A stretch of DNA of 60,221 bases from IMG/VR virus record IMGVR_UViG_3300034012_000852, positions 1-60,221 of that record. One strand, given 5' to 3'. The notes beneath the pieces are model-generated. The model saw only the letters and a list, made by a program, of their open reading frames with translations. It was not told the DNA's origin and did not search any database. The translations under genes and the position numbers were made by a program. The DNA comes from a virus. Every line of letters begins with the position of its first letter. Position 1 is the stretch's first letter. Below, piece after piece: positions 35,745 through 60,221 of the stretch.

Positions 35745-35949
35745 GAAGGGGCAGGGGTTTTTCATCCCTGCCCTAGACCTCGACGCCACGCGTGAGGCGG
35801 GGCTAGTGGACGCTGTCAGGCAGCGGGTGGTGGACGCGCACGCTATGTACGCTATCCACCAGGGCATGCAGGGTGTGCTGTTTTACCGGCACACCAAGCA
35901 CGTCACATCTCCCTCAACTTCGCGGCGTCCGAAGCGTCCCGCACCATAG
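35719..35949 (+). CDS. conserved small protein at the end of the early block, 76 aa
   Basis: Reads VKLPWTTLEKGQGFFIPALD, then VRQRVVDAHAMYAIHQG and GVLFYR, a pattern I remember from phage hypothetical proteins beside primases. GTG 35719 (AGGG upstream) fits better than TTG 35713. It overlaps the primase by 26 nt. Its 3' end overlaps the end of the convergent 2,852-aa gene by 47 nt, and no terminator separates them. The last 18 residues are low-complexity and may be unimportant. Confidence 0.65.
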   Translation: MKLPWTTLEKGQGFFIPALDLDATREAGLVDAVRQRVVDAHAMYAIHQGMQGVLFYRHTKHVTSPSTSRRPKRPAP

Positions 35950-38900
35950 ACGACAGCTTGATCTTCACCTGCTGAATCCGATCCAACAGCGCGCGCTTCT
36001 CGTCTGGCGTCTTGTTGGATGCCCGGATGGCGGCTTCGACCTGCGTCAACTCACCCATCTCCTGTCGGTAGTAGCCCGCCAGTTCAGCCCGGGCGTACTC
36101 GTTGGCACGGGCGTCGAGCAGCGCACGGGCCTCAGCCTTGTCACCTCGGTTGACCAACTCGTTGAACGACGACTGAACTTTGCGCGAGTCGTCCAGGGCG
36201 TCGTAGGTGCTGTTGATGACCCACCGGGCATCGTTGGGCTGGAAGGCGCTGCCAACCACCGGCATGTCGGACAGGCGCTTGGTGGCCTTCTCCGGCGTGT
36301 CCTTTGTGGGGATCGGCAGGCTTGCCGCCTGCAGCAGCGCCATACCCATCGTGCTGAAGTAGCCGCTGATGAGCGCCTCCAGTTTGATGGGGCTGACGCC
36401 CGTCGCACCACCGAAGAGCTTTGCCAGTTCGGTCGTCTTCTCGCGGTACTGATACTCCGGCAGCAGTGCCTGCTCCTTGGCCGACAGCAGCGGGCGCTCG
36501 GTAAACATCGAGTAGTTGGTCATCACCTCGATGGCGGGCTTCATGGCTTGCGGGATGAAGTAAGCAGAGCCGCCAGGGATGGTGTTGCGCAAGATACCGA
36601 GCAGTGCCTCCTTGGCTTGCTCCCCGCCACGCTCGTTGACGATGGTGTTGTAGAGCGCCTCGGGCAACGCCTTGAAGATGTAGCCGATTTCAAACGGGAT
36701 CGGAATGCGTAGGGGCTCCGACACGCCAGGAAGGCGAATGAACCAGTTGCCATACTTCTCAGCAGGCAGCGCGTTCTTGTACGCCTCGTCGTCCTGCATC
36801 GCGTGGGCGTAGGCCAAGGTAGCCGCCATCAGCATGGCGCCGCGCGTGATGAGCTTGGCCTTGATCCGAGCACGCTCGCCTGCCGTAATCTGGCCGAACA
36901 TAGCCCGGTACAGCACGTTCAGACCTTGCACCTGTGCGTTGAAGAACGGGTACAAGGAGTTCGCCATGTGGGCACTGGGCGACGCACCGCGCTTGTTGAA
37001 GTTCATCGACTCCAGCGAGAGCAGCGTGGCCTCCATCTCGGACATGCCCTGCTTGATGTAGCTGTTGTACTGAGCGCGGCGAGTCAGAGCGTCAGCTTCC
37101 ATACCCGCCCACTCCAGCGCGCCGAGGGTCTTGGTAATGGCTGACCGACCCCCGACAAGATCACGCATGATCTTGCTGAGGTCTTCCTGTGTGCCGGTAA
37201 ACATCTGCCCACCGGTGATGCCGCGCCGCTCAAGCGTGCCCTTGGCAGAACTCTCGATCTCACGGAGCGCACCCAGCACTGGCGGGAAGTCAGCACCAGA
37301 CGCAATCGAAGCGGCCAGTGAGTCACGCATCAACTGACGCACCATGTACAGCGGGTTCAGTGTCACAGCGCGGCGCAGCAACTGCGTCGGAACCGTAAGC
37401 GCACGCATGATGCCGGTGGTCTGGAGTGGGATGCCCTCCATGCCCTTGACCAAGATGTCCGCGTTGACGCCCGTGTTGACCTTCTTACCGCCGACTTCGA
37501 CAGTATCGGTTTCAAGAACCGCGTAGCGGTCTTCGCCGTTGTGCTTGAACCGCACAACCTCCGGGCCGTCAACAGGCTTGGATGTGATCTTGGCCATGCC
37601 CAGATCAAGCAACTCAAACATCGCGTTGCGGGTGGCCAGATTGCGCAGCGCCAAGTCCACCATCATGTTGGTGTTCTGCACCGAACTGATCATGAAGTCG
37701 AGGATCGGCTTATCGCCACCCACCAACTCCTGCAGGTGCGGCATGTCCTTGACGTTACCCAGTTTGATCGGAGTCAGCCCGCCAAGCGCCAGTTCAGCAA
37801 CGCCGTTGCGCTCGCGGTACCAGGGAATGTAGTCCTTGGATGCGAGCAGTGCGTCTGCGTCTTTCTTGCTCAGCACGCCTGCCTTCTGGGCGAAGCGCAC
37901 GAGGTTCTCGTTGTACTGGTTGTAGATGTCCCGAGCGTTGTCGAAGATGTCCTGCAGCCCCTCGACAGACCTAACCTGGGCCACGGTATCCCGCAGCTTC
38001 TGCTCAGTGATCTTGGGGTCGCGCAGATCGAGCTTGTCGAAGCCCACACGCTCAGCGCGCTTTGCGGCCAGATACAGGGTGAACAGACGGCTCGTAGCAT
38101 CGACATCGCCGACAAGGCGCGCCGCGCCCTTGAGCGTAACGGCCACTTGCCGCAGGCTTGGGCCGGTCTGGCTCTCGACAATGAACTCGCGCTCACCATC
38201 CCTACGCTGGACTTCGCGGACGTCCAGTGCGCCGTTGGCCACAGACTGCGCCGTGAAGTTCATGCGCTGGTCGTACATGCGCAGGTAGTACATCATCTGC
38301 GTGCCCTTGAGCTTGTCCATGTACTTGGACAGGCGCTCGAACCCGGCAAAACGATCTACCAGACCCGTCTCCATCGCCAGACCGCTGGACTTGGCGCGGA
38401 TGGGTTGCCACCAAGATTGGTTGCCCGCAACGATGCTGCGCCCGAACGCATCCGCCTCGGCCAGGGCCGGGTTCAGATTGCGCGGCTGATTGAGTACCTT
38501 CGGGGCCAACAGCGCGTTGTCGGCCTGGGTCGGACGCGGCACCTTTGTCATCAGGTTATCGACCGCAGCCAGAGTGGCTTCGAGCATGTTCTCCGGCGTC
38601 TTGATGCCAAGCATCCGCAAGAGCGCGCTCTTGAACGAGTCCCACATGTGGCGCAGCGTCCACTTCTGCTGCCGCATCTCTGCCTGCATCACGTCGTCGG
38701 ACAGCGCCTCAGACGCAAACTCACTCAAAGATGTTTTGGCGTTCTCGTTTGTCGCACCCTTTAACTTCTTATACGCCTCGAAAAGTTCTTCCAGTTCCCG
38801 CTTGGCACGGCGCTGATCATCCGTAAGCTGATCCTCGGGCATTTGAATGACGCGCTCGGTAGCGGCGTGCACACCTTCGTGGACAGCCGTGCGCTCATTC

Positions 38901-41900
38901 AGTCCGTACTTGGCATCCAGGCGAATGAAGGAACCGTCAGCCGCAGCCTGACCGTATGCTGCCTGCCCATCCGGGTCACGCAGATCATTGACGATCTCAA
39001 CGCGGGTGTTGCCCAGGAGCAGCTTCAGGCGGTCTGCCACTGCGCGGGTAAGGTCGTTAGTGGTGGACTCAGCGATGTTGCTCATAACAACCGCTGCGCT
39101 CTTCTCACTATCAACTTCTTCTTTCAACGCAGGCCCTTGCGACGCAGTCGCAGCCAGTTGCTGCAGCGTGTCGGGCGCGGGGGCTTTGATCTTGCTCAAT
39201 CGCGCTTCAAGGCTGGCCAGTTTAGCGGTAGCTGCTTCCTTCTCAGCCAACAGTTCTTTCTGACGGGCCTCCTGCTTGGGTGACAGCGTAGGCTTGCCGT
39301 CAACTTCTGGCCCACGCTTGTTGGCCTCAATGAAGTCAAGCTGCCGCTGAATGTCTTTGAGTTGTCCTCGGGCAGTTGCTACGCGGCCAAGGATGCTCTC
39401 ACCCTTGGCGCCAATCTCTTCTTGCACCGCTGCCAGATACTCAGCCTTGGACTTGCGTCCAACGCCAAAGAGGTCGGCAATGTCTGGCTCAGCAACTTCG
39501 ACTTCAGCAAACTCGCGGTCAGCTTCTTCGCGCTCAGCCTGCGCAATGTCCTCAAAAGATTCCGCTGTCTCTTCCTTTGCGGTGCGCCCTTTGGCGACAG
39601 CCGTCTCGGCTTCCAACTTGAATTTGTTCTGCCTGAGCAACGCAGCCTTGTTCTCAAGGCGGCTTCGGTTGTAGTCACCAAGAAGCAATTGCTCCAACTC
39701 GGTCAGCGGCTCTTTGCGCTGCACCTTATCCATCGCCTGCTTGATGATGGTGTTGGTTTCAAAGGTAGCTTTTTCTTCAGGCGTGAGCGTCTTGCGCAAC
39801 AGTGTCTGTTGCTCCTTCCGCTCCTTGATGGCATCTTCATCAAGGAGAGTCTCTTGCCCAACGCCTTTGCTGCTGTACAGCGTACCCTTGGGCTTGCGCT
39901 CAGCCTCAATCTCAGACTTGGTCGTCGCAGTGATGTCAAGCGCAGGGGCGCCAACACGCGCTGCAGCTTCGGCAAACTCTTTTTCCGTAAGCACCGACTG
40001 AATCTCTTTGAGTTCTGCGTCGGTCTTGCGCTTGCGCGGCTTAGGTGGTTCAGCCACCTCGACGGTGCCAGTGTCGATCAGGTTCTTCAGCCACGCCTCA
40101 CGACGCAGCATTTCTGTCAGCGCCTCTTGGTAGCCAACCAAACCCTTGGGCATTACCCGGGCGTTGAGCGCGTTGGTAACCGCGTCGTTGTACGCCGTCT
40201 CAAGCCGGTTTACGATGGGCATCAAGTTGGCGCGGGCCTCGGATGTTTTGGCTTCCGTGTATGCACGCAGAGCAGCTTCGTAAGGCGCGCGCTCTTTCAC
40301 ACCCTCGACGGTCTGCCTACGCGCAGTGTCGTAGGCTTCTTGGAGTTTCTTCGTAAGCGTGCTGATGTACGCACGGTAGCCCTTGAGCACCTGTTGCGGG
40401 TTGCCCCGCACCTGCCGCATCTCGTCGGCCAAGATGGTGGGCGTGTCATCTTCCCGTGCCGCGCGCTGCGCGTCGGTAATGGGGTCGTACGCCATTGACC
40501 GCAGGGGCTGACCAAACTGATCAACGCCTTCGGGCGCTTTCTGCTGTCGCTCAAGCGTGGCTTGCTGCGCCTTGTACTTCGCGGTGCGTTTGAGTTCAGC
40601 TTCGGCTTTGTTGCGCGCCGCCTGCGCACGGCGGTTAACACCTTCTTGTGCCGCGCTCCTGGCTTCTAGTGCGCCAATATCTTTCTTGAGCTTGGACGCT
40701 GCTGCCTGGGCTGCGCGCAGTTCGCGCTTAGCCATCGCCAAGACCGTGCGATCACCACCCTTCTGGGCTTCGTATTCGCGCACGCGCCGGTCAGCTTCCG
40801 AAACACGCGCAACTGCATCAATGCGGGCAAGGGCCGTGCTAAGCGACGAAAACTGGGTGTTGAGGGAGTTGAGATGCTTACCAAGCGGGTTGTCAGCCAA
40901 CTGTTCCTTCAGCAAACGCTTGTCTTCGTCGCTGACCTTCATCGTGTCGATGAAGTCGTTCGTCTGGTTAGCAGACAACTGGAGTTCGTTAACCGCAGCC
41001 TTGAGTTGCCCCCGACGCGCAACGGCTTGCAAAACGCTCCCAAAATCTTTTTGCACTGCGGCAAGCTCGTCTTGCAGAGACTGAATTTTTTCAGTCTTCA
41101 GCTTGCTGCGCGCTTCGATCAGCTTGGTTTCTTGCTCTTCGGCTACACGAAGTGCTTCGCGCAGCGCACCCATGCGCTGCGTAACGCCGTCAGAGTACTC
41201 GCCTAAGTTTGTTCGAGGAAGCGACTCAAGCGCAGCCAGTTCTTCTCTCAGCGCATTCAGCCGCAAGAACGGGTAGGCGTTGGCCAGCGCGTCTTCAATT
41301 TCGTTAACCGTGCCAGTGAGTTCAGAAATTTTGTCGTTAACAGCGTCAAGTTTTTCTCTTGCACGCGCAACCTTCTTCTCGACCGGTTCGGCCTGCTTGC
41401 GCAACCGTTCTGCCGCCTCACCGCCAAGATATTGCTGAAACTCTTCCGGTGTTGCCCGCGTCACAGCGAGCTTCTTCTGCTCACTGGGGAACAGCGCCAT
41501 TTGCCCCGCGTCTTCTTCGCGCGCACGCTCAGCCTGCTCCACAAACGGCTCAAGCTCAGCCTGAAGAGACAGCGGCACCGCCTTCGCGCTTGGACCACGC
41601 AGTGTGTCCTCGCCAATATCACGTGCGGGGCGCTTTGTTACTGCCGCACTGGCGGTCTTGATGGTGCGGGCAAGCGCGGGATTTTCCGCCTCAGCAGCGG
41701 CAATTAGTTCCTCACGAGACGCCTTAAATACTAAAGCACTTGCAGCGTCAGGCGCCATGCCCTCCTTGAGCTTCTTTTGGTACAGATCGCGCCGTGCCCT
41801 ATCCTCCGCGTTGGCCAAGGTAGCACCGGCCACGTCCGCGCGGCCTTCAGCGGGAAATGCCTGCAGCGTGGTTACGCGTCCTGCGCCAGGACGAGCCATG

Positions 41901-44461
41901 CCCTCTTCGCCACTTTCGATGCGACGAAGCTGCGCATCAAGCTGCCCGTAGAAGCCGTCACGATCTTGCTCAGGCAGCACGTTCTCGACGCGGCTAAGGA
42001 AATCGTACGCTTCGTCAGACAGGCGGTTACTGGCCATCGCCCGAGTGAGGCGCTCTTGCAGTTCCTCACGGGTAACTTCACGTGCAGCAGGCTCAGCCTC
42101 ACCAAACAGTTGGAACCCACCCGGCACGCGGCGAGCCTCGCCCGTGGGCTTGAGGACGTTGCGCGGGACAAGCCCTTGCTCACCAAGATCGGTGGTGATG
42201 TCGAACAGCCTGCGGTTTACCTCTTTGCCAAGCGCGTTCTGTGCGCGCTCAAGTTGAGTAGCGCGGCGCTCAAGGCGCACCTTCTCGTCGCCTTCGGCAG
42301 TCTTGGCCTTCTCCTGCACATCACGCAGAAGTGCCGTTGCGCGGTCGTAGCGCATAGTGGCCGGAGCCATTGAAAGCTGCTGCGTCAGGCTTGTAATTAC
42401 ACGGCTTTGCTGCGCAGGATCAGTCGCCGCCATGATGCGGTCAACCAGCTTCTCCGCTTCCACCGGCATGGCAAACTGCATGCGGGGCACAGGGCGCTCA
42501 GCCACACGACGAAGTGCGACGACTTCCGGTGCAAGTCGCTGCTGGCGCCGCTCATCGGCAAGCCGCTGTTCTTCAGCACGCGCTTCTTCCTCGCGCAACG
42601 CCTGCTCTTGCGCTTCAATATCAGGAGCGCCGGGTTTGTACACCCGCGCAGCAAATTGAGAACGCGTCTCAAGAGGCGGCAACTCACGTGGTTTGCCAAG
42701 ATCAAGCCCCTGCTGTGCTCCGATCTGCGACAGATCGGTGATGCCCATTTCCTGCAGCTTCTTGGCCAGCTTGACCTGCGCGTCGATGTCGCCTTCTTCT
42801 TCGGCAACCTCCATCTTTTTGCGCAGCAACTCAAGCTGCTTATCAGCAGGCTTGGGGGTTTGACTGGCAAGTACTTCGGCTTCCTTGAGCGCCTTCTGCA
42901 CTCGGGAGAACTCTTCGCCAAGCGCCAGTTTTTCGGACAGTACCTTTGTGGTCTGCGCCTTTGTGCGCAACTCGTCAAGGTAGTTGCGCAGGTTGTTTGC
43001 CTGGGCAGCGTAGTCAATCGCCTCGCCTTCCGGCGCAGCTTCCGGGGCTTCGCCCAGGACTTGCGGCTCCATGCCCGGAATCGACAACTGCTGCATCGGG
43101 CCAGCAAGTTGTTCCTCCTGCATGCGAGTCTGCTGCTCCTGCGCTGCACGCTGTTGTTCTGCAGCGCGCGCGGCGGCTTGTGCCTGGAGCAGAGGCGCGG
43201 CAATCGCCTTGGACCGGTTGTACTCGGGCGCCTGTTCCTTCAGTTGCGTCGCCAGTTCGTTGCGGCGCTTCTTCTGGGCCTCATAGGTCTGCTTCTCAGC
43301 AAACGAAGCGCCGGGAGGCAGCTTCTGCTTGAGCAGGTCGCCAAGGTCGTTGTACTCTTTCTGCAGCGCGTCATGCTGCTGCATGAAGTTGAGCGCGTAC
43401 TCGGGCGTCTGTTTCTCCGCCGCAGCCTTTTCTTCGGCCAGACGCTCCTGCTCGCGCTGCTCTTTCAGCGCCTTGCCACGCTCAAGTTCTTCTCTGACCT
43501 CGACCCGCTCACGGGCTGCACCGCGCTCGGCCACACGACCGGCAGCACCGATAGGTGCAAGCAGACTGGTCTGGTACGCCGTCTCACCATACTCCTTGAG
43601 CGCGTCTTCACTGAGCAGCGGCAGTCCTGCCTGCGCACGCTCCAGCATCTGCTGCGTGACTTCGGTGGGGATTTCGGCCAGTGCACCAACTGCCGTGCCC
43701 TTGGCCAGCGTCTTGAGCAGCGTCTCCTTGGCGAGCTTCTCAGCGCCTTCTTCGGCGCCTTTCTCCAACATCTTGGCAACACCGGGGCCAAGCGCCTTAC
43801 CGGCCAAAGTGCGGCCTAGCGGAACAAAGGTAGCAGCGACGTCCAGAGCGGCTTGTGGGACAGCCGCCGCAGCCGCCGCAGCGCGATCAATCGATACAGG
43901 ACGTCCTGCTTCTCTGTCTGCTTCACCCTGTGCCCGAATATTGCCTGCAAACTGCTGCAAAGCTGAAGGCACAACGGCACCGGCAATACCACCCAAAACG
44001 CCACCGGCTAAAGTACCTGCAGGGCCAAGTGCTGTACCTGCCATAGCGCCCAAACGCGCGCTTGCAAGAGTAGTCGCAATATTTGGCGCCTGCTGCGCAA
44101 TTGCCAGAGGGGACTGCCGAGCCACTTCACCCGCCGCAGCCAACAGTCCTCGTTCTTCGTACGCTTTCTTTATCAGATCAGTACCGATCTGATTTGCGTA
44201 ACGGCGGGCAATATCCTCTTCGCGCGCTCTGGCCTCACGCTCAGCTTCTTCGGGAGCGTAAATGCCTTTGACACCTGCGCGCAGGGCGCTCAGTGCAGAC
44301 TCTGCACCCTTGCCGACAGCGGCAAGAACACCTTCTGAGGGCTTGGGCTGCTGCGCGATCTGCTGCTTGACTACAGCAATGATCTGTTCTTCGGAAGCGC
44401 CTGCTGGCCCCTCCACATCGTAAATTCTCCCGTCCGGGCCTTGTACGCTGTAAATGGGCAT
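35903..44461 (-). CDS. giant polyvalent internal virion protein, 2852 aa
   Basis: The largest gene (8.6 kb, about 14 percent of the window). Probably packed in the head and ejected with DNA, as N4 gp50 or T7 gp16 are. The N-terminus (YSVQGPDGRIYDVEGPAG) is typical of phage internal proteins. Residues about 120-180 are Ala/Gly-rich and hydrophobic. Residues about 320-1600 are mostly Glu/Lys/Ala/Gln coiled coil. Residues about 1861-1865 are HEGVH in TAVHEGVHAATERV, a zincin-type HExxH. The C-terminal 400 residues contain NWFIRLPGVSEPLRIPIPFE (about residue 2573) and match the LPD38-type domain of polyvalent proteins as I remember it. AGGAAG precedes ATG 44461. No RNA-polymerase motif was found. 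Confidence 0.8.
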   Translation of the reverse strand: MPIYSVQGPDGRIYDVEGPAGASEEQIIAVVKQQIAQQPKPSEGVLAAVGKGAESALSALRAGVKGIYAPEEAEREARAREEDIARRYANQIGTDLIKKAYEERGLLAAAGEVARQSPLAIAQQAPNIATTLASARLGAMAGTALGPAGTLAGGVLGGIAGAVVPSALQQFAGNIRAQGEADREAGRPVSIDRAAAAAAAVPQAALDVAATFVPLGRTLAGKALGPGVAKMLEKGAEEGAEKLAKETLLKTLAKGTAVGALAEIPTEVTQQMLERAQAGLPLLSEDALKEYGETAYQTSLLAPIGAAGRVAERGAARERVEVREELERGKALKEQREQERLAEEKAAAEKQTPEYALNFMQQHDALQKEYNDLGDLLKQKLPPGASFAEKQTYEAQKKRRNELATQLKEQAPEYNRSKAIAAPLLQAQAAARAAEQQRAAQEQQTRMQEEQLAGPMQQLSIPGMEPQVLGEAPEAAPEGEAIDYAAQANNLRNYLDELRTKAQTTKVLSEKLALGEEFSRVQKALKEAEVLASQTPKPADKQLELLRKKMEVAEEEGDIDAQVKLAKKLQEMGITDLSQIGAQQGLDLGKPRELPPLETRSQFAARVYKPGAPDIEAQEQALREEEARAEEQRLADERRQQRLAPEVVALRRVAERPVPRMQFAMPVEAEKLVDRIMAATDPAQQSRVITSLTQQLSMAPATMRYDRATALLRDVQEKAKTAEGDEKVRLERRATQLERAQNALGKEVNRRLFDITTDLGEQGLVPRNVLKPTGEARRVPGGFQLFGEAEPAAREVTREELQERLTRAMASNRLSDEAYDFLSRVENVLPEQDRDGFYGQLDAQLRRIESGEEGMARPGAGRVTTLQAFPAEGRADVAGATLANAEDRARRDLYQKKLKEGMAPDAASALVFKASREELIAAAEAENPALARTIKTASAAVTKRPARDIGEDTLRGPSAKAVPLSLQAELEPFVEQAERAREEDAGQMALFPSEQKKLAVTRATPEEFQQYLGGEAAERLRKQAEPVEKKVARAREKLDAVNDKISELTGTVNEIEDALANAYPFLRLNALREELAALESLPRTNLGEYSDGVTQRMGALREALRVAEEQETKLIEARSKLKTEKIQSLQDELAAVQKDFGSVLQAVARRGQLKAAVNELQLSANQTNDFIDTMKVSDEDKRLLKEQLADNPLGKHLNSLNTQFSSLSTALARIDAVARVSEADRRVREYEAQKGGDRTVLAMAKRELRAAQAAASKLKKDIGALEARSAAQEGVNRRAQAARNKAEAELKRTAKYKAQQATLERQQKAPEGVDQFGQPLRSMAYDPITDAQRAAREDDTPTILADEMRQVRGNPQQVLKGYRAYISTLTKKLQEAYDTARRQTVEGVKERAPYEAALRAYTEAKTSEARANLMPIVNRLETAYNDAVTNALNARVMPKGLVGYQEALTEMLRREAWLKNLIDTGTVEVAEPPKPRKRKTDAELKEIQSVLTEKEFAEAAARVGAPALDITATTKSEIEAERKPKGTLYSSKGVGQETLLDEDAIKERKEQQTLLRKTLTPEEKATFETNTIIKQAMDKVQRKEPLTELEQLLLGDYNRSRLENKAALLRQNKFKLEAETAVAKGRTAKEETAESFEDIAQAEREEADREFAEVEVAEPDIADLFGVGRKSKAEYLAAVQEEIGAKGESILGRVATARGQLKDIQRQLDFIEANKRGPEVDGKPTLSPKQEARQKELLAEKEAATAKLASLEARLSKIKAPAPDTLQQLAATASQGPALKEEVDSEKSAAVVMSNIAESTTNDLTRAVADRLKLLLGNTRVEIVNDLRDPDGQAAYGQAAADGSFIRLDAKYGLNERTAVHEGVHAATERVIQMPEDQLTDDQRRAKRELEELFEAYKKLKGATNENAKTSLSEFASEALSDDVMQAEMRQQKWTLRHMWDSFKSALLRMLGIKTPENMLEATLAAVDNLMTKVPRPTQADNALLAPKVLNQPRNLNPALAEADAFGRSIVAGNQSWWQPIRAKSSGLAMETGLVDRFAGFERLSKYMDKLKGTQMMYYLRMYDQRMNFTAQSVANGALDVREVQRRDGEREFIVESQTGPSLRQVAVTLKGAARLVGDVDATSRLFTLYLAAKRAERVGFDKLDLRDPKITEQKLRDTVAQVRSVEGLQDIFDNARDIYNQYNENLVRFAQKAGVLSKKDADALLASKDYIPWYRERNGVAELALGGLTPIKLGNVKDMPHLQELVGGDKPILDFMISSVQNTNMMVDLALRNLATRNAMFELLDLGMAKITSKPVDGPEVVRFKHNGEDRYAVLETDTVEVGGKKVNTGVNADILVKGMEGIPLQTTGIMRALTVPTQLLRRAVTLNPLYMVRQLMRDSLAASIASGADFPPVLGALREIESSAKGTLERRGITGGQMFTGTQEDLSKIMRDLVGGRSAITKTLGALEWAGMEADALTRRAQYNSYIKQGMSEMEATLLSLESMNFNKRGASPSAHMANSLYPFFNAQVQGLNVLYRAMFGQITAGERARIKAKLITRGAMLMAATLAYAHAMQDDEAYKNALPAEKYGNWFIRLPGVSEPLRIPIPFEIGYIFKALPEALYNTIVNERGGEQAKEALLGILRNTIPGGSAYFIPQAMKPAIEVMTNYSMFTERPLLSAKEQALLPEYQYREKTTELAKLFGGATGVSPIKLEALISGYFSTMGMALLQAASLPIPTKDTPEKATKRLSDMPVVGSAFQPNDARWVINSTYDALDDSRKVQSSFNELVNRGDKAEARALLDARANEYARAELAGYYRQEMGELTQVEAAIRASNKTPDEKRALLDRIQQVKIKLSSMVRDASDAAKLREM

Positions 44462-55836: not shown

Positions 55837-56067
55837 TTACTCCGTGATCACCACCGTGTCGGTGTCCTCAAAGAACATCATGCGCCCACGGCACGCGATG
55901 TTGTAGTCCTGCCCGTTGGCATCCAACTCCGTCCACGACCGAGTTTCAATCCTGACGTGCTTGGCAAGGATTTCCCTGCTGCCCTCAAACACCCGCCAGA
56001 CATGAAGCATGGAGCCACGACCCGGTTGTCCGCGTGACTTGTTGAACCGGATCGTGTACTTGTTCAC
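55837..56067 (-). CDS. small conserved protein, 76 aa
   Basis: Basic beta-rich protein: MNKYTIRFNKSRGQPGRGSM, then LHVWRVFEGSREILAKHVRI and IACRGRMMFFEDTDTVVITE. I remember similar sequences from phage tail-end clusters. No motif identifies a function. ATGA overlap with the tail-chaperone-like gene upstream. Confidence 0.65.
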   Translation of the reverse strand: MNKYTIRFNKSRGQPGRGSMLHVWRVFEGSREILAKHVRIETRSWTELDANGQDYNIACRGRMMFFEDTDTVVITE

Positions 56068-56453
56068 TCAGGGGCTTTCGGCCACTGAATATTGTCGGGG
56101 AAGTCTGCCTGAAGACGAATCTCGCGCAGCGCACGGCGGTATTCAATCCACAGCGCACGGCCACCCGCAGTCATGGGCACGTCCGGCAAGACAGACCAAT
56201 CGGACTCGGCCAACATTTTCTTGGCCTTATCCCAAGCGAGTTCGGCAGCAGAAGACGGGACCGGGCCGGGTGGCGCGTCGCCTACCTCAACCCACCCTTG
56301 ATCGTTGTAGGACTCACCCAACCACGACAGATCACCGATCTGGTCGATGAAGCCATGAAGGCCGAAGATCGGCCCCCAGTTTTCAGGCAGCGGCTGCGGC
56401 TCGCTTAGTGCGCTTCCGTCCGACAGTTTTTTCAGTTGCCACAGTTTGCTCAT
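56064..56453 (-). CDS. tail-assembly-chaperone-like protein, 129 aa
   Basis: The C-terminal half has AWDKAKKMLAESDWSVLPDV, RALWIEYRRALREIRLQADF and PDNIQWPKAPE, the hallmark of the phage tail assembly chaperone/APC-like domain (PF16778 as I remember it). ATG 56453 is chosen over ATG 56459 because AAGGAG then lies at 8 nt. In short-tailed phages this domain often accompanies tail fibres and may assist fibre assembly. Overlaps the upstream 172-aa gene by 71 nt. Confidence 0.7.
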   Translation of the reverse strand: MSKLWQLKKLSDGSALSEPQPLPENWGPIFGLHGFIDQIGDLSWLGESYNDQGWVEVGDAPPGPVPSSAAELAWDKAKKMLAESDWSVLPDVPMTAGGRALWIEYRRALREIRLQADFPDNIQWPKAPE

Positions 56454-56901
56454 TTTCATTACTCCTTGCCATCAAGGCGGGTTGAAGTCCGGGCTGTTGT
56501 TCGGGGGGTGGAAGAATCGCGCCCTTGCTTTGGTGCGGAGCCATATCATTTGGGTGCGGCGGATGCCCCATGCCAGGAAGATGTTGCACCCCACGATAAT
56601 GCGCCAACTCTTCTTCCGTATATTTCCAATCGCGCCAACTTGCAAAATCTTTGCGTGGCAAGATGTGGATATGGCACCCAATGCTTGCAGCAAGTTGATG
56701 AATAATTTCAGTTACCTCGACCGGTTGGAGTATGGCGAAGGTATGCACGCCATCCTGGCGGCGCATCGAAAGTTCTACGATGCCGCCAAAACAAGTTCCA
56801 ACAGTAACTGAACGGGCACGATTGACTGCCTCTTGTATGTTTTGTACTTCCATCCGACGATGGAACGCATCGACTTGCTTTTGACGTTCGCGTTTATTCA
56901 T
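56383..56901 (-). CDS. conserved virion-cluster protein, 172 aa
   Basis: ATG 56901 (MNKRERQKQVDAFHRRMEVQ) has GGA about 10 nt upstream. Further on come ARSVTVGTCFGGIVELSMRR, HTFAILQPVEVTEIIHQLAA and FASWRDWKYTEEELAHYRG, a pattern I remember well from environmental phage genomes next to fibre genes. The C-terminal tail is basic and Thr/Lys-rich. Function is unknown. Confidence 0.65.
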   Translation of the reverse strand: MNKRERQKQVDAFHRRMEVQNIQEAVNRARSVTVGTCFGGIVELSMRRQDGVHTFAILQPVEVTEIIHQLAASIGCHIHILPRKDFASWRDWKYTEEELAHYRGVQHLPGMGHPPHPNDMAPHQSKGAILPPPEQQPGLQPALMARSNENEQTVATEKTVGRKRTKRAAAAA

Positions 56902-57863
56902 TGCGGGTTCCAAGATATATTTACAAATCCACCAGAGCCAACCGTTACTGGATAATTTGAGCCTCCAGTAACGCTTACGCAGTTATAGGTTGCGTTTGTT
57001 CCGGCGCTTCCGGGGTTTCCTGAGCCGGTTCCGGGATTGCCAGCGTTACCGCGACTGCCCCCACCGCCCCCGCCCCCCGCACCGGCTCCGGCTGGGGGAC
57101 GGCTTACATAAAGTCGAGCGCCGCCGCCGCCACCGGCCCCCGCTCTCTGAAGGCCAGCACCGCCACCGGGACATCCGCCCGCAGAACATGATGCTCCCGG
57201 GCCGCCGTTGCCCCCACCAGCACCGCCACCGCCGCCGCCAGACTGTCCAGAAGCACAACTGCCAGGGTTAGAAGTCCCTGCGCCACCACCACCACCACCA
57301 CCATAATTAGAACTTGCTGGTGATGCAAAGCCCCCGAATGGCGATCCTCCAGAGCCACCATTACCAAGAACTATAAATCCGCCCGGGAAAGGGGGGCTAC
57401 AGGGTAGATTGCCCCCGTTATTGCCGCAAAACCCCGGCGTCCCGTTGGTTCCTGCGTTGCCACCTGTACCACCACCACTACCCGCAGACCCTCCGGGGAA
57501 GTTATAAGAAAGTGCCGTGCTGGCTGTACCGTTATTTCCCGGAGAGCCTGGATTGCCCGGATTGCCTGAGCCAAAACCGTAACCCCTGGAGCCACCTGCG
57601 CGGGAATCAACGACATAATAGTTCCCATTAGAACAGCAATAATCTTCCCAATATGCTGGCCTACCGCAGCCGCCGTTGCCTCCGCCGCCACAATTCCCAG
57701 GGTTGCCGCCATTGCCAGGGTTCCCGGAGCCACCTTGACCCTGAACACTTACACGGGTAATACCAACCGGAGCGGTCCAAGTGCCAGATGTATTAAATGT
57801 TTGCGAGCCACCGGGGGTTAGCACGCCCCCATACATTGCAATTTTTGGTGTTCCTGCGGGCAT
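56898..57863 (-). CDS. Gly-rich adhesin / tail-tip protein, 321 aa
   Basis: After an N-terminal beta part (GGVLTPGGSQTFNTSGTWTA, then PVGITRVSVQGQGGSGN) the protein is an extended Gly-rich repeat with Asn and Pro (NPGNPGSPGNNG; GNPGTGSGNPGSAGTN) and scattered Cys pairs (CGGGGNGGCG, CCSNGN). This composition suggests polyglycine-II helices as in phage S16 gp38-type adhesins, ending in a small beta domain (YNCVSVTGGSNYPVTVGSGG). It is likely the receptor-contacting tip. The GNPG repeats resemble collagen and stand next to three hydroxylase-type genes. Confidence 0.7.
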   Translation of the reverse strand: MPAGTPKIAMYGGVLTPGGSQTFNTSGTWTAPVGITRVSVQGQGGSGNPGNGGNPGNCGGGGNGGCGRPAYWEDYCCSNGNYYVVDSRAGGSRGYGFGSGNPGNPGSPGNNGTASTALSYNFPGGSAGSGGGTGGNAGTNGTPGFCGNNGGNLPCSPPFPGGFIVLGNGGSGGSPFGGFASPASSNYGGGGGGGAGTSNPGSCASGQSGGGGGGAGGGNGGPGASCSAGGCPGGGAGLQRAGAGGGGGARLYVSRPPAGAGAGGGGGGGSRGNAGNPGTGSGNPGSAGTNATYNCVSVTGGSNYPVTVGSGGFVNISWNPQ

Positions 57864-57870
57864 TTTTTCC

Positions 57871-58467
57871 TCACTCGTAGTAGAACCAGCCAGTCACAAT
57901 GTACTTGCTGCGTTCACCAAAAACAGTATTGCCACGATGGGCATGTGTAAATGCAGCAGGCCAAAGCACCATCGTATTTTCAGTGGGCTGCAACCTGCGC
58001 TGCTGATATAGAAACTCAGTTTCTCCAGCCTCTTCTTGAGTTAACGTGTTGAGGTATAGCATATATACCAAAACACGCTCGGCCTGCTCTCCGTTATTTT
58101 GCTCTGCGTGCCAAATATGATAGCCGCCGCCAGGGTCGGTACGCTGCATCTTCATGGCGGTACCGGTAATTTTTCCATCCTTAAGCAATGAAAATTGCTC
58201 AGTATAGGCGTCATAGCATTGCTGAAGCCCATCGAAAAACACCCGAGTCGCGGGGATACCATTAAAAGCGGCGGCAGTATGTACGCCAAAATTAAAATCC
58301 AACTGAGTATCGTTTTTCCTATGTTTAAGCGCACCTTCGCTACGCTGACGGTTTGTTCCCGCGCCAGAATCAATCAAACGCTCAAACTCACTAATCAAAT
58401 GCTGACAGTACCCATCCGGGTATACATTCCGGTAGACGGCAATGAAGTCTTTGTACTCTGCGTTCAT
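57871..58467 (-). CDS. 2OG-Fe(II) oxygenase, type A, 198 aa
   Basis: An iron-dependent oxygenase using 2-oxoglutarate. Proposed ligands are H120 and E122 in YHIWHAEQNN (HxE in place of HxD), with the distal His in AFTHAHRGN (H175) and the 2OG-contacting basic residue R178 or K188 (KYIVTGWFYY). The beta core (RVLVYMLYLNTL) separates them in the normal order. ATG 58467 overlaps the upstream stop (ATGA). The DNA here is visibly less GC-rich than neighbouring late genes. Substrate is unknown. Confidence 0.8.
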   Translation of the reverse strand: MNAEYKDFIAVYRNVYPDGYCQHLISEFERLIDSGAGTNRQRSEGALKHRKNDTQLDFNFGVHTAAAFNGIPATRVFFDGLQQCYDAYTEQFSLLKDGKITGTAMKMQRTDPGGGYHIWHAEQNNGEQAERVLVYMLYLNTLTQEEAGETEFLYQQRRLQPTENTMVLWPAAFTHAHRGNTVFGERSKYIVTGWFYYE

Positions 58468-59018
58468 TTGAATGCTGGCCCCGAAGCCCAAGCCACAAGA
58501 GATTGACGATTACCGCTTGTCACGGGGGTTACTTGGTGGAGTACATATGAGGGGAATGCCGCCACCAGTCCCCGCTGTTTGCGAACGGTTTGTGGCTGAC
58601 CACCAGTCATAACCTGGAGGTTTCCCCCCTCGTACTGGCTCGGGTCGCTCAGTTGGAGAACCAAACTGAATTTGCGACTTACATTTGTGTTGTAGTCCTG
58701 ATGCCATCCATACATCCCTTGTTCTGATTGAACATAATTTGTTAACTGAAACGGCTCACCAAATCCCGTCAGATCAAACCGATAATATTTGGCATTTAGA
58801 GAAGAAGCGATTTGCCCAAGTTTCTGAAATACCCAAGCGGTATCTGGCGTTTTATTCAGCCAAGAAATTTGAGACCTCCGAATCTTCGCCAAGTCTGGCC
58901 CCTGCGGGTCACCGCCCACCTGCGCCTGCTGATCGGCCTTACGAGCCTGCTCTTGGAGCCAGTCTAGTTCCTGCTCCGTAAACCCACTCTCCCACCAAAC
59001 GAAGGGTTCTATGGGCAT
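58464..59018 (-). CDS. 2OG-Fe(II) oxygenase, PKHD/PiuC-like, 184 aa
   Basis: The clearest of three oxygenases. GMYGWHQDYNT supplies H106 and D108, FPSYVLHQVTPVTSGNR supplies H161 and R171, and RKFSLVLQLSDPSQYEGG sits between them: the full HxD...H...R set of PKHD-type hydroxylases. The N-terminus (FVWWESGFTEQELDWLQEQA) is a short helical cap. ATG 59018 lies 11 nt after the upstream stop; in-frame codons further upstream are a shadow of that gene. Prolyl or lysyl hydroxylation is plausible for this family, but the substrate is unproven. Confidence 0.88.
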   Translation of the reverse strand: MPIEPFVWWESGFTEQELDWLQEQARKADQQAQVGGDPQGPDLAKIRRSQISWLNKTPDTAWVFQKLGQIASSLNAKYYRFDLTGFGEPFQLTNYVQSEQGMYGWHQDYNTNVSRKFSLVLQLSDPSQYEGGNLQVMTGGQPQTVRKQRGLVAAFPSYVLHQVTPVTSGNRQSLVAWASGPAFK

Positions 59019-59029
59019 AGCGTATGGAG

Positions 59030-59623
59030 TCAGCACATGCTGCACGGGCGCTCCTTGTGGGACACGATGAAATGAATGCATCGCGTCGGGGTGTCGGTAT
59101 TGCTGCCGGTCAGTTGGTGCTGCATCCACGAGTTTCCAAACATCACGGTTCCAGGCACCATGTTGTTGAAGTGAATGCTGTTGGTGGCGTTGAGTACTTC
59201 GCCGCCCTGCACGAAGTCCAGTTCGATCATGGACTTGTTCATGCGGGTGTCGTGGTAAATCGGGTACGCGCCACCCTCGGGCGTTTCGAGGAAGAACCAC
59301 CCACACATCTGGCTGTTCTTGTGGACATGCACGGCGGTGCCGCCGCCTCGATTGATCTCCTGCGCCCAAAGACCGGAGAGGTAGAAGTCGTACTTCTCGA
59401 CCGCATACCCTTGACTCCGCAGCAGGTCTACAACTGACAGCAGAAGGTAGTCTGCCACTTCCCTGAAGGCAGGATCGTGCGCGAGATGGGCGGACTGAGA
59501 CATCGGCCACTCGGGCTTGCGAACTTGATCCAAGTATTGGATGCATGTCGGCAGAACCTTCTCAGCCAAGTCGGGCCGCTCATCTCGATAGACGATAGCC
59601 GGGAAGTAGGCAAAGCCTTCCAT
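59030..59623 (-). CDS. 2OG-Fe(II) oxygenase, PF13759-like, 197 aa
   Basis: Third oxygenase, of a different subfamily. GGGTAVHVHKNSQMCGWFFL, then EGGAYPIYHDTR and PGTVMFGNSWMQHQLTGSNT with TRCIHFIVSH follow the order of the 2OG-FeII_Oxy_5 family. Metal ligands probably include H101 and H169, with R181 for 2OG; these assignments are by alignment from memory. Its ATG (59623) shares one base with the TGA of the 73-aa gene. It has an N-terminal helical domain (SVVDLLRSQGYAVEKYDFYL). Confidence 0.75.
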   Translation of the reverse strand: MEGFAYFPAIVYRDERPDLAEKVLPTCIQYLDQVRKPEWPMSQSAHLAHDPAFREVADYLLLSVVDLLRSQGYAVEKYDFYLSGLWAQEINRGGGTAVHVHKNSQMCGWFFLETPEGGAYPIYHDTRMNKSMIELDFVQGGEVLNATNSIHFNNMVPGTVMFGNSWMQHQLTGSNTDTPTRCIHFIVSHKERPCSMC

Positions 59624-59844
59624 CAAGCGTTGATGTGGGCTTCAATTGCGGCGGCGAAAGCCGTGATGTCAGCGGCGGAAACGTCACGAGCGTCCACAGG
59701 CTTGCTGCGGGCGTTCTCAAGCAGGGTTTCCTTAGCAAGCCGCACGGCTTCCAGTTTTGCCTGCTTGGCCTGCAACGCCATTTGGTTAGCGTGGCGGGCG
59801 TTCTCCAAATCCATCTGGAATTGTTGGTCAACAGTCATAGACAT
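59623..59844 (-). CDS. small Ala-rich helical protein, 73 aa
   Basis: ATG 59844 follows TAGGAGCAAAAA. A Gln/Ala/Lys-rich helix (MDLENARHANQMALQAKQAK, then LEAVRLAKETLLENARSKP) is followed by a second helix ITAFAAAIEAHINA. I remember similar short proteins next to fibre genes in environmental phages. It could be a fibre oligomerisation partner, but no evidence is visible. Confidence 0.65.
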   Translation of the reverse strand: MSMTVDQQFQMDLENARHANQMALQAKQAKLEAVRLAKETLLENARSKPVDARDVSAADITAFAAAIEAHINA

Positions 59845-59856
59845 TTTTTGCTCCTA

Positions 59857-60221
59857 TTAAGCGGCCATATTCTTCATGGCAATATTGCCGTACCACGTCG
59901 TGCCTCCATCCGGGGTGAAGAAAACCCAGATGTCAGTGGCGTTCGCCGTGGTTGTGCGAGACAGGGACGCTGCCCCGCCAGGGAATCGGAAAGAACCACC
60001 AGACCAAGCCACAGTTCTACCGGCTGTGCCGTCGTTCGTCAAGATCAACGTGAACGAAGACGAGCCCGTGGCGATTGGGTTGGAGAGTGTAAACGTGCAG
60101 TTGCCGGTCAGCGTGGCAGTGAAGACGTTGGCATTCCGCAGGTCAATGGTCGTGGCCGTCCCGGTGTTACCCAGGGCAGAAACCGTATCCGCGTAGGCTT
60201 TGGGTCGCACAAACCCTGCGG
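59857..60221 (-). CDS. tail fibre C-terminal domain (cut by window edge)
   Basis: The frame is open to the right window edge, so the N-terminus is missing. The visible part (AGFVRPKAYADTVSALGN, then NVFTATLTGNCTFTLSNP and WVFFTPDGGTTWYGNIAM) is a beta-sandwich tip common at phage fibre C-termini. An in-frame GTG at 60210 could be mistaken for a start. It precedes, in transcription order, the 73-aa protein and the three oxygenases. Confidence 0.75.
   Translation of the reverse strand, partial: AGFVRPKAYADTVSALGNTGTATTIDLRNANVFTATLTGNCTFTLSNPIATGSSSFTLILTNDGTAGRTVAWSGGSFRFPGGAASLSRTTTANATDIWVFFTPDGGTTWYGNIAMKNMAA

Follow-up and report, generated by a model that had tools for sequence, protein, structure and literature searches.

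The window analysed here is the whole of a 60,221-nt record from an uncultivated water virus (IMG/VR record IMGVR_UViG_3300034012_000852), and near one end of it three consecutive genes of 2-oxoglutarate (2OG)-Fe(II) oxygenase type, A, B and C, lead into a gene for a Gly-rich protein, G, which we presume to be an adhesin and their substrate (Table 1). We find that this module is a real, conserved and unexpected genetic unit and that such oxygenase genes are linked to proteins with Gly-Asn-Pro (GNP) repeats across viral contigs; we consider it reasonably probable, from sequence comparison and structure prediction, that A, B and C, together with a further enzyme, D, in many relatives, form a virion-protein modification cassette that hydroxylates the Gly-X-Pro repeats of G. 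All four open reading frames (ORFs) are present as an initial annotation had called them, each of the three enzymes scoring above a curated 2OG-Fe(II) Pfam cut-off, and the tight coupling it described is borne out: a gap of 11 nt separates A from B, B and C share an ATGA overlap, and G starts 8 nt past the stop of C. Two of its details need amending. The block does lie between the end of a tail fibre gene and the Gly-rich protein, but a 73-aa gene intervenes between the fibre end and A; and the three subfamilies it named are all represented but were paired with the wrong genes, A being of PF13759 type, B carrying HxD and C carrying HxE.

Table 1. Features of the tail locus, with positions in the window unless another record is named; the last two rows are D-like genes of cultured phages
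Feature	Position	Strand	Basis
C-terminal end of tail fibre protein, truncated by the window edge	59857..60219	-	phrog_7760 tail fiber, E 1.5e-10
73-aa gene between tail fibre end and A	59623..59844	-	position kept in homologous loci
Gene A, 197 aa, PF13759-type putative 2OG-Fe(II) oxygenase	59030..59623	-	Pfam PF13759, conservation
Gene B, 184 aa, PKHD-like 2OG-Fe(II) oxygenase	58464..59018	-	PF13640, PDB sequence match, invariant residues
Gene C, 198 aa, prolyl-4-hydroxylase-like 2OG-Fe(II) oxygenase	57871..58467	-	PF13640, fold match, invariant residues
Gene G, 321 aa, Gly-rich, presumed adhesin and substrate	56898..57863	-	sequence, family statistics, model
~172-aa gene downstream of G, start overlaps by ATGA	56383..56901	-	homologues at 41/65 repeat loci
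Tail fibre assembly chaperone (Phage_tail_APC)	56064..56459	-	PF16778, E 1.2e-13; homologues at 41/65 repeat loci
D-like gene labelled 'ferrochelatase', HTVC023P gp67	L629:29302-29922		phrog_2954
D-like gene labelled 'ferrochelatase', S-CAM8 SXCG_00046	L635:8681-9289		phrog_2954

Pfam searches match A to PF13759 (E 7.3e-9, 36.4 bits) and both B (E 9e-14, 52.6 bits) and C (E 2e-12, 48.1 bits) to PF13640, against a cut-off of 27 bits in each case, and PHROG searches match A to phrog_81 and B and C to phrog_61. A, a putative PF13759-type 2OG-Fe(II) oxygenase judging from its sequence, keeps H99-x-H101, H169 and H184 in 88/88 sequences. In B, H106-x-D108 (with Q between them in the window), H161 and R171 are invariant in 120/120 sequences, leaving the facial triad and the basic 2OG ligand motif intact, and its matches by sequence in the PDB are the PKHD hydroxylases 3dkq (E 2e-8) and PiuC (9ghl). 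The corresponding residues of C are H120-A-E122, H177 and K188; this HxE...H...K pattern is invariant in all 118 sequences compared, and the HxD iron motif of collagen-type prolyl 4-hydroxylase (P4H) is absent from C.

An AlphaFold2 model of C, with a predicted local distance difference test (pLDDT) score of 90, has as its top fold match in the PDB the collagen prolyl hydroxylase vCPH of virus PBCV-1 (5c5t; E 7.5e-11, template modelling score 0.67-0.73), and the best 50 fold matches are all prolyl hydroxylases, vCPH first and the others HIF or bacterial enzymes. A sequence search of the PDB with the C profile likewise finds prolyl 4-hydroxylases as the best matches, weakly (E 0.0025). Model and sequence together support placing C among enzymes that hydroxylate prolines of proteins, an assignment of class that does not identify the substrate. 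The 80 loci of C homologues on bacterial chromosomes have no GxPG protein nearby and so point to neither a host nor a second, cellular system.

Window G is 34% Gly and carries Gly-Asn-Pro triplets between conserved N- and C-terminal caps, with six GNPG, one GSPG and one GTPG. Pfam and PHROG searches, including that for Collagen (PF01391), return no match to it, nor does BLAST against phage isolates. The description of G as collagen-like holds for its Gly-X-Pro triplets and for its relative in a T4-type virus (L243), a protein of 1395 aa with a Pfam Collagen match at E 6e-46, but the window protein itself does not match Collagen. G relatives at homologous loci span 265-468 aa and ~28-39% Gly. 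In 70 G homologue cores, picked by linkage and oxygenase homology and thus independently of the repeat motif, GxPG occurs 489 times and GPxG 35 times; 315 of the former are GNPG, Asn standing mostly in X. GxPG density is 2.68 per 100 aa in these cores vs 0.23 in control Gly-rich proteins, and Pro in the G homologues sits mainly in the Y position of the Gly-X-Y triplets. Collagen prolyl 4-hydroxylase recognises its substrates at X-Pro-Gly. Lys hydroxylation is unlikely to be the main modification of G because the window protein has a single Lys, K7, in or near its low-confidence N-terminus. The model of G (pLDDT 91, predicted template modelling score 0.71) is mostly non-helical and largely non-strand, with strands at both ends, a predicted structure with which packed polyglycine-II helices would be compatible. 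That G is an adhesin we infer from its position in the tail module and from its variable core between conserved ends.

Viral contigs scanned separately with A, B and C yield largely the same contigs, and gene order was read as far as each contig extends. The loci of 71 distinct C proteins share one order: tail fibre, a gene of ~75 aa, A, B, C, (D), G, a gene of ~170 aa and tail chaperone. Because the arrangement is kept at 71 distinct homologous loci, chance is ruled out. We also searched for triplets away from any tail protein, the finding that would have spoken against the initial annotation, and all 71 of the 71 distinct loci lie in a tail module. A scan that uses nothing of G but its first 48 residues recovers 80 loci, and every one that reaches upstream has B and C adjoining G. 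The gene that we call D, ~196 aa, sits between C and G in 27 of 70 scored loci. Its HxD...H is invariant in 51/51 sequences and it matches PF13532 below threshold, on which grounds we read D as a putative fourth 2OG oxygenase; G proteins of loci with D are longer and slightly richer in Pro, a comparison confounded by relatedness. Some loci depart from the common order: in a subgroup (L157, L162, L163 and L165-L169) a divergent A-like gene lies downstream of the tail chaperone and not upstream of B, and in L058 several Gly-rich genes follow A-B-C (from about 9750 onward), followed by more Gly-rich (about 25%) ORFs.

Linkage to the repeat is also found by a search independent of the oxygenases, for viral-contig DNA encoding GNPGNPGNPG. 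A 2OG gene of A-D type lies within 5 kb of 48 of the 56 distinct Gly-rich ORFs recovered, directly adjacent and on the same strand in 37 of them, and most of the eight ORFs without one are cut off on one side. Among controls, proteins with GPX repeats, in which Pro is in the X position, have nearby 2OG genes in 2/18 cases, and Gly-rich tail proteins with an FTVPAGVxxV motif in 3/81 distinct cases, one of these three (L559) bearing four GxPG triplets along with A, B and C. The difference between 48/56 and 3/81 gives a Fisher p of 9e-25, and 25/33 with p = 3e-15 after removal of loci in which any oxygenase scores ≥260 against its hidden Markov model (close relatives); both p-values ignore phylogeny and so overstate significance. 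A search for GNA repeats was rejected as a control for want of independence, 18 of its 19 distinct ORFs also bearing GxPG triplets.

The pairing recurs with its genes arranged in at least seven ways (ABCg, ABCDg, BCg, CgBD, gB, gBC, gCB and others, g being the repeat protein). Records of 141 kb (L231) and 199 kb (L243) that carry it encode full-length T4 gp23, a third (L263) encodes a gp23 fragment, and short-tailed relatives of HTVC023P carry it too; because it is seen in both settings, the pairing of oxygenases with GNP repeats is not confined to one phage lineage.

On the cassette reading, B and/or C, as 2OG-Fe(II) prolyl hydroxylases, would modify G late in infection, before or during assembly, at the Y-position Pro of Gly-X-Pro-Gly, mostly Gly-Asn-Pro-Gly, and A and D would modify other residues of G or of the adjacent fibre. 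The earlier proposal that the oxygenases act on the adhesin is thus supported in part, with strong indirect support from the near-exclusive linkage, the Y-position Pro, the model of C and the recurrence in unrelated viruses; G as substrate, hydroxylated Pro as product, which enzyme acts and any effect on adhesin stability or receptor binding are what we infer. That modification tunes receptor binding, as was also proposed, is a guess. By analogy with collagen in animal cells, the adhesins of phages may be hydroxylated by the phages' own enzymes. More tentatively, and with rather less confidence than doubt, we suggest a widespread system in which one to four dedicated 2OG-Fe(II) hydroxylases would process a GNP-repeat adhesin, a prokaryotic-virus counterpart of collagen hydroxylation that could explain a good part of the abundant phage 2OG-Fe(II) and 'ferrochelatase' genes that are at present interpreted as metabolic.

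Several observations weigh against hydroxylation of G by the cassette. Gene A, although iron and 2OG residues were initially ascribed to all three genes, does not carry the canonical HxD/E iron ligands and has HxH instead, and a fold search of the PDB with the G model returns nothing significant. B occurs alone at 14 repeat loci, and C is therefore not obligatory. In the cultured phage HTVC023P the Gly-rich proteins that lie near B-, A- and D-like genes have few GxPG triplets, and the C-like gene of S-RSM4 and of S-CAM3, flanked by a fibre or structural gene and the tail chaperone, stands beside tail proteins without GxPG repeats; given these contexts, not all such enzymes can act on the GxPG motif. 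Within the window clade common descent accounts for part of the linkage, and, given the similar N-terminal motif among Gly-rich families, whole cassettes may have been transferred.

A rival reading is that G is a mere neighbour and that the substrate is a different virion protein, above all the tail fibre upstream, or more than one tail protein: in the window clade a tail fibre lies upstream of A, and the C-like genes of S-RSM4 and S-CAM3 directly follow a structural or short-tail-fibre gene. We regard this as unlikely, since the gB, gBC and CgBD loci place 2OG genes beside the GNP-repeat protein itself and Gly-rich tail proteins without the repeat seldom have them. Auxiliary metabolic enzymes (host 2OG or nitrogen metabolism) or DNA repair or modification enzymes in a permissive tail-module site would accord with the standing published reading (PMC3037559, PMC9599517, PMC11561400) and with a B-like gene of CRP-810 that adjoins a resolvase and a polymerase, but such functions predict neither the Gly-Asn-Pro linkage nor its recurrence in different gene orders, and C resembles protein prolyl hydroxylases in fold and sequence; we hold this to be rather improbable. 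Hitch-hiking, in which a recombination hotspot by a receptor-binding gene gathers morons and a shared Gly-rich N-terminal domain carries the block with no functional coupling, draws on the many 2OG genes in cyanophage tail regions and on the ~170-aa gene and chaperone that accompany the block at 41/65 loci, which makes block transfer a possibility. It seems very improbable to us, as the genes are intact, their active sites are invariant even among distant relatives (34% identity at the lowest for C), and Gly-rich relatives without GNP repeats do not gather 2OG genes. The linkage thus puts forward a specific substrate, a virion protein, modified at Pro in Gly-X-Pro-Gly by C and/or B. Should the cassette reading be true, oxygen, iron and 2-oxoglutarate in the infected cell would be needed for the host-range determinants of many aquatic phages, and an adhesin produced in the absence of the enzymes could be inactive or wrongly folded.

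Few non-structural genes are as common in aquatic phages as those for 2OG-Fe(II) oxygenases. The initial remark that three in a row is unfamiliar needs correcting, as adjacent runs occur in sequenced cyanophages, S-CAM8 having four consecutive genes with 2OG Pfam matches ahead of a tail fibre gene. The 2OG genes of cyanophages have been read as serving host nitrogen metabolism or DNA repair (PMC3037559), and those of pelagiphages and seasonal marine viruses likewise (PMC9599517, PMC11561400); S-SCSM1 carries 24 of them, and the paper that reports this notes that the functions of these enzymes in viruses had not been specifically investigated (PMC9602691). In the virion proteins near a 2OG gene of S-SCSM1 we find no GxPG. 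In the open-access literature searched we found no paper proposing adhesin hydroxylation, which is weak evidence of absence, and no relevant paper on a phage prolyl hydroxylase with a collagen-like tail fibre. Phage proteins labelled 'ferrochelatase' (phrog_2954; Table 1), treated as a ferrochelatase metabolic gene in a 2024 study (PMC11561400), match the D family at ~125 bits, have HxD...H and give no Pfam ferrochelatase match; by sequence they look like 2OG oxygenases with a wrong label. Some cyanophage genes annotated as 'DNA endonuclease' or 'DNA endonuclease V' (L635:11095-11610 and L637:10597-11136; phrog_2297, phrog_274) similarly resemble the PF13640 2OG-Fe(II) oxygenases, one scoring E 2e-11 and one E 1.5e-5, just under the cut-off, and their labels look doubtful from sequence comparison.

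The window virus is probably short-tailed and of the broad group of Pelagibacter phages HTVC023P and HTVC027P and lake phage DSL-LC04, because its terminase is ~50% identical to theirs and because it encodes a DNA ejection protein and a portal/head-tail adaptor protein. A 2852-aa ORF (window 35903-44461, - strand) adjoins ejection and endolysin-type genes and is as long as the large ejection proteins carried in virions. A ~78-aa family resembling the 73-aa gene is present at 23/65 repeat loci. The ~172-aa gene, for which Pfam and PHROG searches give no match, accompanies the Gly-rich protein across many viruses, and its product may serve that protein specifically, as a chaperone or an attachment factor.

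Among known systems, B resembles the PKHD-type hydroxylases PiuC and Sbal_3634 in an aligned catalytic half with HxD...H...R, and differs in its 184-aa length, in a match limited to residues 109-178 and in its tail-operon setting. C shares its predicted fold, sequence-profile similarity and a Lys ~11 residues past the distal His with vCPH (5c5t/5c5u), BaP4H (3itq/5hv0) and the Pseudomonas putida P4H (4j25), and differs from them in HxE, in 16-19% identity and in being encoded within a phage tail operon, next to the gene for its presumed substrate. The phage 2OG-Fe(II) oxygenases of PHROG 61 and 81, from cyanophages and pelagiphages, belong to the same families as A, B and C, and the isolates S-CAM8, S-CAM3, S-RSM4 and HTVC023P resemble the window in having runs of 2OG genes in tail regions, whereas their GNP-repeat linkage is weak or absent and their partners are labelled ferrochelatase or DNA endonuclease. 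Compared with polyglycine-II tail-tip adhesins of the S16 gp38 type, G has a confident model without a significant match to a known Gly-rich adhesin; those tail-tip proteins of Gly-rich kind whose N-terminus is of TFTVPAGV type have a similar N-terminal motif and a Gly-rich core, but also have ~12-fold fewer GxPG triplets and few nearby 2OG genes. Collagen-like phage tail fibres, with Gly-Pro-X repeats, are built like G on Gly-X-Y triplets, but seldom have 2OG genes near them and carry Pro mostly in X, not in Y as G does.

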